The notes beneath the pieces are model-generated. The model was not told the DNA's origin. It did not search any database and was given only the letters and a program-made list of their open reading frames with translations. A program made the translations under genes and the position numbers. This document shows, in pieces, positions 7,909 to 38,153 of a DNA stretch of 64,000 nt. The stretch lies in contig PAVO01000017.1 in assembly GCA_002713215.1 (NCBI GenBank), positions 62,001-126,000 on the forward strand, given 5' to 3'. Source of the stretch: Crocinitomicaceae bacterium (GTDB taxonomy: Bacteria; Bacteroidota; Bacteroidia; Flavobacteriales_G; Salibacteraceae). The first letter of the stretch is position 1, and each line of letters begins with the position of its first letter.

Positions 7909-8505
7909 TTGGACGATAAAATAAAATTCTTTCACTGGCCACAGGAAGTAGAAATTCCAAAAGAATTTCATTCCATTGATGAAATGGGTGAGTTCACAAC
8001 CTGTTGTATGTGTGAAAAAAAAGTCAAGGAGTCAGGGGAACCCTATTTAATTGAAAGATCTTTTAAGCGAGTAAATGAATCTTACGAGAACGTTTTGTTT
8101 GAATACGCCATTTGCTTCGACTGTGCCCGAAAAATGAATGAAGCCATGAGCAAGGAATCTATGGCTAAGTTAGAAACCTACTTTAGTCAGTATTTAACCG
8201 GCGAACGGCAACGAATGAAGTTAGAAGAGTCACAAAATGATTCAATGGCCTGGTTTAATCACTGCATGGTAAAGGGAACAGCGCGGGAGGACATCTTTGA
8301 ATACAATATTTGTGGATTGTTCCGAGGAGATAAGATGCTGCTGGGTGAATTTCCTTACCTGCTTTCGCTGGAAGCTATGGAGGAAATTACAGAATTGCTT
8401 TCTGCCGAAACGAAAGATGAACTCGATGACTTTAGAAGGAATCATTTGGGCGGACCTCCAGAATTTGAAGAATTGCTAAAAGGAAGACCCGTTTTTATCT
8501 TCTAA
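7909..8505 (+). CDS. Conserved-looking protein with two CxxC zinc-binding pairs, function unknown
   Basis: About 198 residues, soluble, no signal peptide. I do not recognise the family. Two cysteine pairs, C32-x2-C35 and C69-x2-C72 (with an extra C33), are spaced like a treble-clef or zinc-ribbon knuckle and probably bind zinc. The rest is acidic and helical, with a Met-rich amphipathic stretch near 85-110 and a proline/glycine-rich C-terminus ending GRPVFIF. The start is uncertain: there is no ATG before residue 26, and the two upstream candidates are TTG codons at 7888 and 7909. The first overlaps a promoter-like TAGTTTTG box, so 7909 is preferred. The gene is followed 17 bases later by the PqqB-like hydrolase and may be co-transcribed with it. 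Confidence 0.7.
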   Translation: MDDKIKFFHWPQEVEIPKEFHSIDEMGEFTTCCMCEKKVKESGEPYLIERSFKRVNESYENVLFEYAICFDCARKMNEAMSKESMAKLETYFSQYLTGERQRMKLEESQNDSMAWFNHCMVKGTAREDIFEYNICGLFRGDKMLLGEFPYLLSLEAMEEITELLSAETKDELDDFRRNHLGGPPEFEELLKGRPVFIF

Positions 8506-29745: not shown

Positions 29746-30066
29746 ATGAGATACTTGAATATACTTGCAGTTGCCGTCCTAAGTCTTTCATTGTTTGCCT
29801 GCGAACCGCTGGGAGAGCATTGCCCGGATGAAAATGAATTTTCTCAATGCCAGGTAAAACCGGATAAAGGTCCATGTGAAGCAAGCATTACCAAGTATTA
29901 CTACGACGAAGCTTCGGGTTCATGTAAGGAATTTGAGTGGGGCGGTTGCCAGGGATCGGTTCCTTTTCACTCCTTATCGGAATGCCAGGAATGTGCTGGT
30001 TCTGGATCGAGTACACCAGTCGATAACCCGAACACAGGAGTTGTTGGAAACGGCTTATTTAACTAG
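29746..30066 (+). CDS. Lipoprotein with a BPTI/Kunitz-type protease inhibitor domain
   Basis: A 106-residue lipoprotein: signal peptide with lipobox LFAC (C19), then a Kunitz domain at about residues 35-83. Cysteines 35, 44, 60, 68, 80 and 83 have spacings 8-15-7-11-2 against the classical 8-15-7-12-3, and the signatures GPC, YYYD and WGGCQG match the fold. Kunitz domains block serine proteases through the P1 residue after the second cysteine. Here P1 is Glu (E45), which does not suit trypsin and would suit a Glu-preferring protease. C26 is an extra cysteine. A Gly/Ser-rich tail follows. The gene has a terminator immediately downstream and no close partner. Bacterial Kunitz proteins are uncommon. 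Confidence 0.85.
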   Translation: MRYLNILAVAVLSLSLFACEPLGEHCPDENEFSQCQVKPDKGPCEASITKYYYDEASGSCKEFEWGGCQGSVPFHSLSECQECAGSGSSTPVDNPNTGVVGNGLFN

Positions 30067-30090
30067 AAAAACATAAGATATTTATATTGG

Positions 30091-30123
30091 AAGCCCTTCT
30101 GATTTTCGGAGGGGCTTTTTTTG
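30091..30123 (+). terminator. Intrinsic terminator after the Kunitz lipoprotein gene
   Basis: An 11-base-pair stem including two wobble pairs (30091-30101 with 30107-30117, five-base loop) is followed by seven T's. It lies 25 bases after the stop at 30066. Confidence 0.85.
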
Positions 30124-30137
30124 TTTAGAGGTTTGTC

Positions 30138-30326
30138 TCAGCTTAGGTTGTCTGACTTGGTTTCATTGGGATTCGAAACCGACGTTTCAACGCTATTGAT
30201 CGTTCGAATATGATACTCGCTCCAGGTTCCTTCCTTAATCTTTTTTACGAATTCCTCCATACTCATAATATGCCCCGTTTTCAGGTCATGGTATTGGGGT
30301 GGGTCTCCTGGTAAACGTTTAACCAT
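30138..30326 (-). CDS. Small uncharacterised protein, start uncertain
   Basis: 62 codons from the only ATG, reading MVKRLPGDPPQYHDLKTGHI and then a short helix (MSMEEFVKKIKEGTW). I do not recognise the family. The frame stays open for another 21 codons upstream (about 30389 down to 30327) with coding-like residues and a strong AAGGAG ribosome site right after the stop of the preceding gene, but without any ATG, GTG or TTG there. Either the start is further in than the coding signal suggests or the 5' end has been damaged. It follows the frameshifted gene on the same strand and may be its operon partner. Confidence 0.4.
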   Translation of the reverse strand: MVKRLPGDPPQYHDLKTGHIMSMEEFVKKIKEGTWSEYHIRTINSVETSVSNPNETKSDNLS

Positions 30327-30389
30327 ACCTACACTATCATCAAACTCTTGGGTTTCTTCATCTTCGATGTTATGACGATAGACTTCTCC

Positions 30390-31249
30390 TTAATAAAGGC
30401 AGTAAACATATCCTTTAGCTGCAACTTCAATACTTTCTGCTAATCGGCTTCCAGCAGGAATCCATTCATTAGTGCTTTCTTTGAAAAAGGCTATTTTGCT
30501 AGGCTGAAGATCTGATTCATCAAATATGCCGTACAAGCCAGTGCTTTCATCATACCCGATTTGAGAAAATTTAATGTCGTGACCGATTTTGTTCCAATCG
30601 TCGGTCCAGTTAGAATGACCCATATAAATATGAACTGTTTTATCTGTAGACAATTTGTATAGTTTATCTGGTCCACCTGCAATTTGAGAAGTTGAATTGC
30701 CTATTAGTTTCCAGCTTCCAGAAATCATATCCAGCACCCTTATGCTTCCATCTGTTTGTAGGTAAACATTATCTATGTAAGCATTAACAACTTGGTCTAC
30801 ATTCGATTGCATTGGAATCCAATCTGAAGCTGAATCCCATAACATTGCCTCGTTTGTGGTCTCAGCGATATAGAATAACTCAACCGTACCAATAATGCTT
30901 TTTGCATTGTTTACATGATCAAACGGCTCCCAGTTTTCTGAGAAAAATCGAAGCCCCAAATACTTTTATCTGCCTTGATCATAAAAGCCCTTCGCTGAGC
31001 AGCAAATAGTTTTATGCAACCTTGGCCGCACTCATTCCATTCTTTGATGGAATCATCCCACCAATACACGGTCCCTTCCAGGTCGTTTTCAAGTCGAAAT
31101 ACATAAGGCGTTATTACAAGGTGTGTCTTACCAGGTGGCGGAGCAGTAACAGTAGTGTAGGCAGCAATTGACTTTGTATTACCATCCCAACCTAATTGAT
31201 TCCAGGAGTGAGAAGGGTTCTCTGAAGTATTCATTTTTCCTGGAAACAT
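30390..31249 (-). pseudogene. Tectonin-like repeat protein, interrupted by one frameshift
   Basis: Two overlapping reading frames on the minus strand join into one protein of about 285 residues. The first runs from an ATG at 31249 to about residue 98 (KADKSIWG); the second continues LRFFSENWEPFDH and ends at 30390. The switch falls at a run of four G's near 30955-30958, where one extra G would restore the frame. The protein has repeated W-rich blocks (VYWWDDSIKEWNE, MLWDSASDWIPM, ISGSWKLIGNSTSQIAGG, DDWNKIGHDIKF, FKESTNEWIPAG) like tectonin or similar beta-propeller repeats. There is no signal peptide. It could be a true pseudogene or a homopolymer sequencing error. Confidence 0.65.
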
Positions 31250-31443
31250 TATTTTCAACCCACTGGAAATTTCGATTTATCTTTTTTATCTCCGGTTTAT
31301 GTTGATTAATTTTCTATCGTTTCATATTTGCACTTTCACAAGCAGCCGCCCAATGGCTGTTGTTAGCACTACTACTTGAAATTCCCCTTATTTCTTTTTA
31401 TGGTTTGAGTATTGAAGCCATAGGTGTCGGTTCGGTTTTGGGA

Positions 31444-32555: not shown

Positions 32556-33677
32556 TTATTCCTTCGGCTGTTGCTGGGTTACACAATGGGTCATGCCACC
32601 GTTGGCATAAACGTTTCTGGAATCAATACCAACTACTGTTCGGTTTGGGTAAAGCGCTTGTAACAATTTCAAAGCCACTGCATCATTCGGGTCATTATAA
32701 ATAGGAACCAGAACCTTGGTATTGGCGATGTAATAATTGCAATACGAGCCTTTGAATCCCAGGTTCTTTCCATAAGTAGTGACCACATTATTGCTGCTTA
32801 ATGGAAGTTTTAGGAAGGTATAGGCTTGCCCATCTTTATTTTTAGCTGCGAGCAACTTATCAATGTCCGATTGCAAGACGTCATAGTCAAGTAAATCATT
32901 GTTTTCCATGGTTACAATGGTTGTTGAATTTCCAAATCGCGCAAAGCCATCAATGTGCTGGTCGGTGATTTCAAGCCCTGCCTGTCCATCAAGCCAAACG
33001 AAATTGGTTACGCCTAAATATTTCTTGAAGATATTCTCGGCCTGCTGCTGAGTCATTCCCGGATTTCTGTTGTTGTTTAATATAGAACTCTTGCAGGCCA
33101 TAAGTGTTCCGTGTCCATCCATTTCAACGCTACCGCCCTCATTGATCATGGTATTGTTTAAATCAATAACCGTTCGATTTTGGGCTTGTCCAATTTTTTG
33201 TGGAATGACATTGCAATTATTGAAAGCAGCTTTGTCTCCCCAACCGTTGAACCCCCAATCCTGAACAACCAAATTCCCTGCTTTATCGCGTACGTAGATT
33301 GGCCCGTTATCCCGAATCCAGAAGTCATCATTGGGAAATGTTTTAAAATCTACATTGGTCAAATCAATGGATTGAGCATTAAGAAGATCTATAATTCGGT
33401 TTTTTTCCGTTTCGTTGTAGGCTACTATATGAACCTTTTCACTCGTGATCAATTCTTTGGTCATAGCCACCCAGGTAGGGTCCAGGTAATCCCTGAATTT
33501 TTTTCCATATTGATAATGGTGGGGCCATTGTAACCAGGTTCCTTCGTGTGCTTCGCTTTCTTCTGGAAAAGTGTAGAGTATTTCGGTTGTTGAGTTTGAA
33601 TCATCAACAACCTCTTTTTTGCATGAGGTAATTGCCGTTAGGAAAACAGCCAGGATATATAGAATCATTATTCTCAT
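32556..33677 (-). CDS. Agmatine deiminase / peptidylarginine deiminase family lipoprotein
   Basis: A 373-residue guanidino-group hydrolase of the PAD_porph/AguA family, which converts agmatine or C-terminal peptidylarginine to the citrulline or carbamoyl product plus ammonia. Catalytic blocks: DFWIRDNGPI (about 119-128), EGGSVEMDG, DQHIDGFARF with the catalytic His, and GGMTHCVTQQQP with the catalytic Cys near residue 365. Unlike cytoplasmic AguA, it has a lipoprotein signal (ITSC, C19), so it acts outside the cytoplasm. That fits a secreted peptidylarginine-type or scavenging role more than polyamine synthesis. Substrate unproven. Confidence 0.88.
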   Translation of the reverse strand: MRIMILYILAVFLTAITSCKKEVVDDSNSTTEILYTFPEESEAHEGTWLQWPHHYQYGKKFRDYLDPTWVAMTKELITSEKVHIVAYNETEKNRIIDLLNAQSIDLTNVDFKTFPNDDFWIRDNGPIYVRDKAGNLVVQDWGFNGWGDKAAFNNCNVIPQKIGQAQNRTVIDLNNTMINEGGSVEMDGHGTLMACKSSILNNNRNPGMTQQQAENIFKKYLGVTNFVWLDGQAGLEITDQHIDGFARFGNSTTIVTMENNDLLDYDVLQSDIDKLLAAKNKDGQAYTFLKLPLSSNNVVTTYGKNLGFKGSYCNYYIANTKVLVPIYNDPNDAVALKLLQALYPNRTVVGIDSRNVYANGGMTHCVTQQQPKE

Positions 33678-35990: not shown

Positions 35991-38153
35991 ATGAAAAAGG
36001 TATTTATTGTAATTCAACTATTCATTTTTTCCATTTCTCTTTCGGCAAAAGAAGGAATGTGGATTCCTTCATTGATCAAGAACCTGGTGGAATCGGATAT
36101 GCAGAATATGGGAATGAAATTAACCGCCGAGGATATCTATTCATTCAACAAATCAAGCCTAAAAGATGCCATTGTTCATTTTGGCGGTGGCTGTACTGCA
36201 GAAATGATTTCCGATCAGGGATTGTTGCTAACCAATCACCATTGCGGTTATTCACGCATTCAAGCGCATAGCTCGGTTGAAAACGATTATTTAACGGATG
36301 GGTTTTGGGCCATGAACCGATCAGAAGAAAAAAAGAACCCTGGCCTCACTGCAACTTTCATCATTAAAATAGAAGATGTAACCGAACAGATTTTAGAAGG
36401 AGTAGAAGATGGAATGCCGGAAGCTGACCGTCAAAAGATAATTGCAGAGAACATCAAAAAGGTAGGGGAGAAGGCAATTGCAGAAACCCATTACAAGTAC
36501 ATCATTCGTCCTTTCTACTATGGAAACGAATATTTTATGTTTCTTACCGAGACCTTTAAGGATGTCAGGTTGGTTGGCGCTCCTCCATCGTCAGTGGGAA
36601 AGTTTGGATTTGATACGGACAACTGGATCTGGCCTCGTCATACGGGAGACTTTTCCATTTTTCGAATTTATGCTTCCAAAGACAATAAACCTGCAGACGT
36701 ATCGGACGATAACGTACCGTTTAAACCACGCCATTCTTTACCTGTTTCCATGAGTGGTGTTCAACAGGATGATTTTACAATGGTTTACGGGTTTCCCGGG
36801 CGAACCAGCGAATACCTTACTTCACACTCGGTACGATATACCATGGAAAAATTGAATCCCAACAGAATTAAAATGCGGGATATTGCTTTGGAGATTCTGG
36901 CCGAATCAATGGCATCAAGTGATAAGATTAGAATTCAGTACGCAGCCAAACAGTCCCGAGTAAGCAATGCCTGGAAAAAATGGATAGGACAGAATAAGGG
37001 ACTGTATCGAAACAATGCAATTGAGAAAAAACTGGATGTGGAGAAACGTTTTATGGCCCGTGCAGAGGAAACTACCGCAGAGCATGGATTAAAATATAAG
37101 CGACTATTAAAGGAATACGAAAGGGTGTATAAGGAAATTGAGCCTTATGACTTTGGACGAGCCATGTTTATTGAGTTGTATTACAACGGTCCCGAAATAG
37201 TACGCTTTGCATTGGCTTTTGAGCAACTAAACCCGGAAAAACTTAAAGAGGATGCGGATATTGAACAGATTAAGAACAAGCTTCGTAAATCGGCAAAAGG
37301 TTTTTTCAAAAACTACGACTTACCTACCGATCAAAAACTTATGGTCGCTATGCTCGATGCCTATTTCCAGCGTATTGATTCATCACTTAGGCAGGACATT
37401 TATTCAACCATAGAAACCAAGTATAAAATGAACTATGAAGAATATGCTTCTTATGTATTTGGTAAAACTACTTTCTCTACCGAAGATGACGTAAATGCAT
37501 TTTTGGATAAGTATAAAGATGATAAATCTTTTGCAAAAATTCAGAAGGACCCTGCCTATATTCTGGCTACTAGTTTAATGAAAGGTTATCGCGAGAAGGT
37601 ATCCCCTGAGCAGAAAAGATTAAGCGATGAGTTAGCTATTCTCAATCGAACCTACATGGAGGGCTTAATGGTGTTGTTGCCCAATGAGCAAAAATACTAT
37701 CCGGATGCAAATTCCACACTTAGGGTATCCTATGGTAAGGTAGAAGGCTATGATGCAGCCGATGCAGTAACCTACAAATCGTTTACAACAACCAAAGGAA
37801 TTCTTGAAAAGAGAGATACTACCATGGAGTTTACGGTTCCCGATAAATTGGTTCAACTCATTGAAACAAATGATTATGGTCCCTATGTAGATAAAGATGG
37901 TAGCATGCATGTTTGTTTTGTGGCAAGCAACCATACCACAGGTGGTAATTCAGGAAGTCCCGCGTTGAATGGTAAGGGTGAGCTGGTCGGACTTAACTTC
38001 GATCGTACCTGGGAAAGCACCATGAGTGATATTATGTTTGATCCTACGATATGCCGAAACATTATGGTCGACATTCGATATGTACTGTTTATTGTAGATA
38101 AATACGCTGGGGCAGGTCATCTGATCGAGGAAATGAATCTGGTAAATAACTAA
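35991..38153 (+). CDS. S46 family dipeptidyl-peptidase, DPP11-type
   Basis: A 720-residue exported serine exopeptidase that removes dipeptides from peptide N-termini in the periplasm. Signal peptide at 1-19. The triad is visible: H84 in TNHHCGY, Asp in TGDFSIFR near residue 224, and S654 in GGNSGSPAL. The residue 18 after the serine is Arg (R672 in LNFDRTW). In DPP11 enzymes of P. gingivalis the equivalent Arg673 selects Asp/Glu at P1, while DPP7 has Gly there, so this is predicted to be acidic-specific. Length and order match S46. It stands alone on the plus strand. Confidence 0.93.
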   Translation: MKKVFIVIQLFIFSISLSAKEGMWIPSLIKNLVESDMQNMGMKLTAEDIYSFNKSSLKDAIVHFGGGCTAEMISDQGLLLTNHHCGYSRIQAHSSVENDYLTDGFWAMNRSEEKKNPGLTATFIIKIEDVTEQILEGVEDGMPEADRQKIIAENIKKVGEKAIAETHYKYIIRPFYYGNEYFMFLTETFKDVRLVGAPPSSVGKFGFDTDNWIWPRHTGDFSIFRIYASKDNKPADVSDDNVPFKPRHSLPVSMSGVQQDDFTMVYGFPGRTSEYLTSHSVRYTMEKLNPNRIKMRDIALEILAESMASSDKIRIQYAAKQSRVSNAWKKWIGQNKGLYRNNAIEKKLDVEKRFMARAEETTAEHGLKYKRLLKEYERVYKEIEPYDFGRAMFIELYYNGPEIVRFALAFEQLNPEKLKEDADIEQIKNKLRKSAKGFFKNYDLPTDQKLMVAMLDAYFQRIDSSLRQDIYSTIETKYKMNYEEYASYVFGKTTFSTEDDVNAFLDKYKDDKSFAKIQKDPAYILATSLMKGYREKVSPEQKRLSDELAILNRTYMEGLMVLLPNEQKYYPDANSTLRVSYGKVEGYDAADAVTYKSFTTTKGILEKRDTTMEFTVPDKLVQLIETNDYGPYVDKDGSMHVCFVASNHTTGGNSGSPALNGKGELVGLNFDRTWESTMSDIMFDPTICRNIMVDIRYVLFIVDKYAGAGHLIEEMNLVNN

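Follow-up and report, generated by a model that had tools for sequence, protein, structure and literature searches.

A lipoprotein with one Kunitz domain and glutamate at P1 in a Crocinitomicaceae bacterium leads to an under-studied microbial Kunitz clade

The open reading frame at 29746-30066 (+) starts with ATG and encodes a lipoprotein of 106 aa with a single Kunitz/BPTI domain. It lies in a stretch of 64,000 nucleotides from a Crocinitomicaceae bacterium, which we call the window, and an earlier note on this DNA had singled it out. The Kunitz lipoprotein is real and was rightly described there; the most valuable lead is an under-studied clade with a variable, often acidic P1 residue, and not this single gene. 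We propose, with moderate confidence, that the protein is a lipid-anchored canonical Kunitz/BPTI inhibitor of a foreign S1-type protease, in which Glu45 would set the specificity.

The match of residues 35-82 to PF00014 (E 1.2e-12, 48.3 bits against a curated cut-off of 21) and the matches of Kunitz chains of the PDB, which reach down to E 1.8e-19, are too strong for the Kunitz assignment to be due to chance. The six framework cysteines C35, C44, C60, C68, C80 and C83 are all present and aligned, and would be able to form the 5-55, 14-38 and 30-51 pairs. The claim of a Kunitz lipoprotein with six framework cysteines is thus borne out by the agreement of lipobox, Pfam profile and PDB matches. 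The earlier note had also proposed a structure prediction as a check on the closing of the fold with its shortened loops. For AlphaFold, the mature protein was aligned with 76 microbial domains; the resulting model shows two long strands and a C-terminal helix, and its mean pLDDT is 88-91 across mature-chain residues 21-60. The Foldseek and VIA-align matches of this model are Kunitz domains, with an rmsd of 1.3-2.1 Å for most of them, and the closest folds are those of TFPI, APPI and BPTI. The predicted Kunitz fold closes despite the shortened loops, which a model guided by related sequences supports, short of proof. We regard the Kunitz fold as nearly certain.

The protein is laid out as MRYLNILAVAVLSLSLFAC-EPLGEHCPDENEFSQ-CQVKPDKGPCEASITKYYYDEASGSCKEFEWGGCQGSVPFHSLSECQEC-tail. 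The signal peptide (residues 1-18, 29746-29799) is a hydrophobic stretch leading to L-F-A-C; the lipobox LFAC, residues 16-19, was assigned by eye and agrees, with the signal peptide, with a Bacteroidota lipoprotein. The predicted lipidation site, Cys19 (29800-29802), is followed by the short acidic linker EPLGEHCPDENEFSQ (29803-29847), which carries an extra Cys26 (29821-29823). The Kunitz domain proper, from C35 to C83, is delimited at 29848-29994 by the Pfam and PDB matches, the model and its fold matches, and the tail (29995-30063), rich in Gly, Ser, Pro and Asn, is predicted to be disordered (pLDDT ~50). The gene is preceded by a gap of 148 bp, and a consensus scan placed a hairpin resembling an intrinsic terminator 3' of it (30089-30119, +); these two features suggest a single-gene transcript. 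Further along, three overlapping short open reading frames in different frames (30138-31258, -) resemble one frameshifted or decayed gene. The PF04371 family, to which the Porphyromonas-type peptidyl-arginine deiminase belongs, is known mostly as cytosolic agmatine deiminases. A match to it at 32556-33677 (-; E 1.7e-87) begins like a lipoprotein, MRIMILYILAVFLTAITSC, which is unusual for the family.

That Kunitz inhibitors are rare in bacteria, as had been stated, needs softening. Whole-genome Pfam scans of sampled genomes detected PF00014 in 10 of the 42 examined from the order, in 31 of 395 from the class and in 6 of 395 drawn across the phylum, and relatives occur in other phyla and in archaea. 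Among named genomes, a scan guided by a profile yielded 139 relatives that were confirmed, of which 80 were kept; they come from Bacteroidota, Marinimicrobia, Alcanivorax, Campylobacterota, Thermodesulfobacteriota and archaea (taxa of metagenome-assembled genomes, MAGs, being those of the bin assignment). No Kunitz relative was found among the viral contigs searched. The domains fall into two groups, A, with a second half of the [WY]GGCxGxVPF type and including the window protein, and B, with YSGC. The host genome carries one copy of each: its second Kunitz lipoprotein, at 8055-8306 of locus L140, is short and has one domain (PF00014 E 2.8e-6). The closest relative of the window protein, at locus L135, shares 59% identity with it and also has Glu at P1.

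Some relatives have composite architectures. In a record titled Nitrosopumilaceae archaeon MAG, a single reading frame (L048, 9725-11329) joins a Kunitz domain to a full-length serpin domain. Another, from a record titled Methanophagales archaeon (L049, 135-1466), has a single Kunitz domain with six Kazal matches after it, and a close copy of its Kunitz part is found in a second record of the same title (L040). A Saprospiraceae MAG encodes six tandem Kunitz domains (L056, 9419-10555), with K, E, K, E, K and R at P1.

The one-residue shortening of the last two loops, claimed for the window protein, is confirmed. From C68 to C80 there are 11 residues where BPTI has 12, the gap falling after GCxGxV relative to SmCI, TFPI and bikunin, and the last cysteine pair is C80-xx-C83 where the BPTI type has C-xxx-C; each loop is therefore one residue short of the lengths that are typical, though not definitional, of animal domains. 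It was wrong, nevertheless, to take the short loops as an oddity of this protein, since they are common in a large microbial clade. The spacing between the fourth and fifth framework cysteines is 11 residues in 90 of 91 group A domains and 10 in all 22 of group B, and the animal length of 12 residues between C38 and C51 was seen in 0 of the 113 microbial domains collected. The C-xx-C ending, that is the short C51-C55 loop, is present in 51 of 91 group A domains. The C38-C51 shortening is thus a mark of the microbial clade, and the C51-C55 shortening is common within it. Two peptide patterns, of which one contains the VPF motif, served to find the 80 named loci, and the domain expression and the division into groups A and B rely on the cysteine frame and the PF motif; because of this bias, the loop claim rests mainly on the Pfam-based scans, in which the motif had no role in detecting the genes.

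The canonical loop of the Gly-x-Cys-P1-Ala/Gly form is kept as G42-P-C44-E45-A46, within G42-P43-C44-E45-A46-S47-I48-T49. Alignment to TFPI, SmCI, bikunin and 76 microbial domains confirms the P1 that had been read from the sequence, Glu45 (GAA, 29878-29880), directly after C44 and before A46. The earlier note presented this glutamate as a peculiarity, which it is not; the family search that the note recommended finds it recurrent. Among 91 group A domains, P1 is K in 26, E in 21, R in 15, L in 7, N in 6, D and F in 5 each, M in 3, Q in 2 and Y in 1, so that Glu is the second commonest residue and an acidic P1 (Glu or Asp) occurs in 26. Within the order, the Pfam-based scan found Glu at P1 in 7 of 10 group A proteins, the remainder having R, Y or K; among lineages near the window protein, Glu is therefore normal.

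P4 Gly and P2 Cys do not vary across the 91 non-redundant group A domains (the Cys partly through the search pattern), 84 of which have Ala at P1', while P1 ranks sixth in variability among the core columns. Small or beta-branched residues are found at P1 in 0 of 90 domains, against 22-35 of 90 at comparably variable exposed columns of the same group, and the variation thus appears restricted to side chains able to fill an S1 pocket. Side-by-side duplicated Kunitz lipoprotein genes (L092, L061, L089, L060, L071) always differ at this position: all six adjacent tandem paralogue pairs do so, as K/Q, K/E, K/E, M/D, R/L and L/E. In one such pair there are 14 synonymous and 4 replacement codon differences, and P1 is among the 4. 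A weakly resolved tree of 44 columns requires at least 16 gains or losses of P1 Glu; P1 labels change 49 times against a shuffled mean of 55.6, and Glu alone 16 against 19.0. With changes only slightly below the shuffled values, this tree shows that P1 is labile and gives no direction. Since the variability of P1 is close to that of free surface positions, diversifying selection is suggested and no more; the pattern, which is not a formal selection test, fits what is expected of inhibitors whose target changes.

The window protein contains eight cysteines, and no obvious partner is seen for C26, which lies after the lipidated C19 and ahead of the domain and which the earlier note had passed over. 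Heuristic counts were made over 60 group A proteins whose lipobox is recognisable: of the 23 with an extra Cys between the lipid-bearing Cys and the domain, 19 have a further one immediately behind the last framework Cys, compared with 10 of the 37 that lack the upstream one. In group B, nearly every protein has the extra pair (19 of 21). From this co-occurrence we infer a fourth disulfide tying both ends of the protein together. L135 keeps both extra cysteines, whereas the window protein keeps C26 and lacks the C-terminal one, and C26 is for that reason probably unpaired. The missing partner could reflect a partial decay of the window protein.

The signal for surface export in Bacteroidota, C-X-K-(D/E)2 or similar, follows the lipid-bearing Cys (PMC5080379). 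No match to C-X-K-(D/E)2 was found in the window protein, which starts C-E-P-L-G-E-H. By a crude count, at least two acidic residues stand at positions +2 to +6 in 25 of 60 group A proteins. Lacking the acidic export signal seen in many relatives, the window protein may face the periplasm; it would be anchored in a membrane, probably the outer one.

It can be hypothesised that lipidation at Cys19 would hold the protein in the membrane, probably the outer one, where the rigid C44-E45-A46 loop would be offered to the active site of an endopeptidase of the S1 type, with a trypsin or chymotrypsin fold. The enzyme would bind the loop as it binds a substrate, with no efficient turnover, and Glu45 would set which enzymes are bound. 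The invariant P4 Gly and P2 Cys, the near-constant P1' Ala, the varying P1 and the fusions to serpin and Kazal domains fit canonical inhibitors with retuned specificity. The window protein is likely to be a canonical inhibitor. A foreign target is rather probable, and is favoured by the finding that chymotrypsin-type S1 matches over the cut-off in the host genome comprise only three HtrA-like proteins, together with the lack of shared neighbours described below. The most likely targets would be foreign proteases secreted by competitors, predators or hosts. The acidic P1 would point to enzymes that accept Glu, and a Glu-preferring protease as the target is possible, if somewhat doubtful; a V8-type glutamyl endopeptidase was not found in the host genome by the S1 family search.

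The genes around the Kunitz loci name no partner. No S1 or S8 protease gene adjoins the Kunitz gene in the window, and none is conserved beside it in relatives; the pairing with an adjacent target-protease gene seen for potempins is thus absent from the window locus. The earlier note had seen no matching protease nearby except a distant S46 enzyme, and this holds for the window. The 834 neighbour genes around the loci, clustered and scanned for motifs, include one subtilase, one S1-like protein and two S46 peptidases, and with no conserved protease among them a partner identified by neighbourhood was rejected. Recurrent neighbours are clade-specific, and the window copy has no neighbour genes in common with those relatives from its own family that were examined. 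In a Flavobacteriaceae clade, the Kunitz gene stands beside topA, about three genes before type IX secretion genes resembling gldKLMN (named by eye), and in Marinimicrobia it is near ABC-transport genes resembling gldFG (both contexts in L037, L039, L041, L042, L044, L045, L055, L058, L059, L066, L072, L093 and L113). These contexts may represent inherited gene order only.

The proximity to secretion genes in one Flavobacteriaceae group bears on another reading, in which the anchored inhibitor would protect its cell against the serine proteases that this cell exports, as they cross or leave the envelope, a self-protection that has been proposed for the lipoprotein potempins of Tannerella. The host genome, searched for the S1 and S8 families, has about 12 subtilase matches besides the three HtrA-like proteins, and the lack of a surface-export signal would agree with a position facing the periplasm. 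Kunitz domains, however, classically inhibit S1 and not S8 enzymes, no protease is conserved among the neighbour genes, and the charge of P1 flips among near relatives, a change that would be disfavoured if the target were one fixed protease of the cell's own; we consider self-protection unlikely. The S46 peptidase 6 kb away (35991-38153, +) keeps the Arg of the NFDR motif, which we take to be its S1 specificity residue. Its best matches are the solved Asp/Glu-specific dipeptidyl-peptidases (5jxf, E 1.9e-207), and it is very likely a DPP11. Regulation of this enzyme by the Kunitz protein would suit the chemistry of P1, but it is an exopeptidase that removes N-terminal dipeptides and its closed site should bar a Kunitz loop. 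In nine relatives, the S46 and Kunitz genes are on separate contigs (of fragmented assemblies, two of them with only 7 contigs), and the genome G003 has S46 with no Kunitz domain detected. With this mechanism and this lack of linkage, DPP11 was rejected as the partner, and the regulation of it is highly improbable.

A Kunitz fold may also serve a role other than inhibition, such as ligand binding or a structural surface domain, for which the C5 domain of collagen VI and the channel-blocking members are precedents. A glutamate at P1 should suit trypsin poorly, and the extra Cys and the acidic linker have no known role. Against such a use, which we hold to be quite unlikely here, stand the canonical G, C and A framework kept across relatives, the restriction of P1 to S1-filling side chains, the fusion to other inhibitor families, and the inhibition of proteases in vitro by a bacterial Kunitz protein whose specificity tracks P1 (PMC11511053).

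Returning to canonical inhibition of foreign proteases, the collected loci depict a widespread microbial clade that has a loop signature of its own and a P1 that changes freely among side chains able to fill an S1 pocket; its members are anchored as lipoproteins, occur in tandem arrays and are in some cases fused to serpin or Kazal domains. Kunitz inhibitors have been treated mainly as animal proteins. A literature search of partial coverage, mostly of titles and abstracts, found no description of the lipoprotein clade or of a natural P1-Glu member, and only one paper assaying a bacterial member (subscription journals being mostly outside its coverage). To our knowledge, inhibition of glutamyl/aspartyl-specific S1 endopeptidases by an acidic P1 is known only from engineered BPTI. 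It may tentatively be surmised, as a less probable extension of the proposal, that the anchored microbial set repeatedly evolved acidic P1 residues and supplies natural inhibitors of such endopeptidases, as a rapidly retuned bacterial defence. This raises a testable question: do free-living bacteria hold interchangeable anchored inhibitors against foreign proteases, with the acidic-P1 versions directed at glutamyl endopeptidases?

Compared with BPTI, TFPI, APPI and SmCI (PF00014, MEROPS I2), the window protein has the same six-cysteine framework, G-x-C-P1-A loop, GGC secondary loop and predicted fold; it differs in being one residue shorter both from C38 to C51 and between the last two cysteines, and in its P1 Glu, its bacterial lipoprotein anchor and its partnerless extra Cys. 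BPTI engineered to carry Glu at P1, for which crystal structures with trypsin (3bte) and with chymotrypsin (1t7c) exist, shares both P1 and scaffold with it, the glutamate being there by mutation, whereas in the window clade it is natural and recurrent. The L140 copy of the same genome is likewise a short lipoprotein with one Kunitz domain, but it belongs to group B, with a YSGC secondary loop, a loop shorter by one further residue and Ala at P1, where its relatives mostly have Gln. The F6W77 protein of A. baumannii (KABP1-5) also consists of bacterial Kunitz domains, and the G-L-C-R-G-Y-F-P loop of KABP1 resembles the microbial clade, in which P4' is Pro in 57 of 91 group A domains; the comparison is of this loop. 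It differs in having five domains with Arg or Leu at P1 and in being reported as secreted and not as a lipoprotein. Its KABP1 domain, with P1 Arg, inhibits factors Xa and XIa, and its P1 Leu domains inhibit elastase (PMC11511053), so that canonical inhibition set by P1 is the behaviour to be expected of the window protein.
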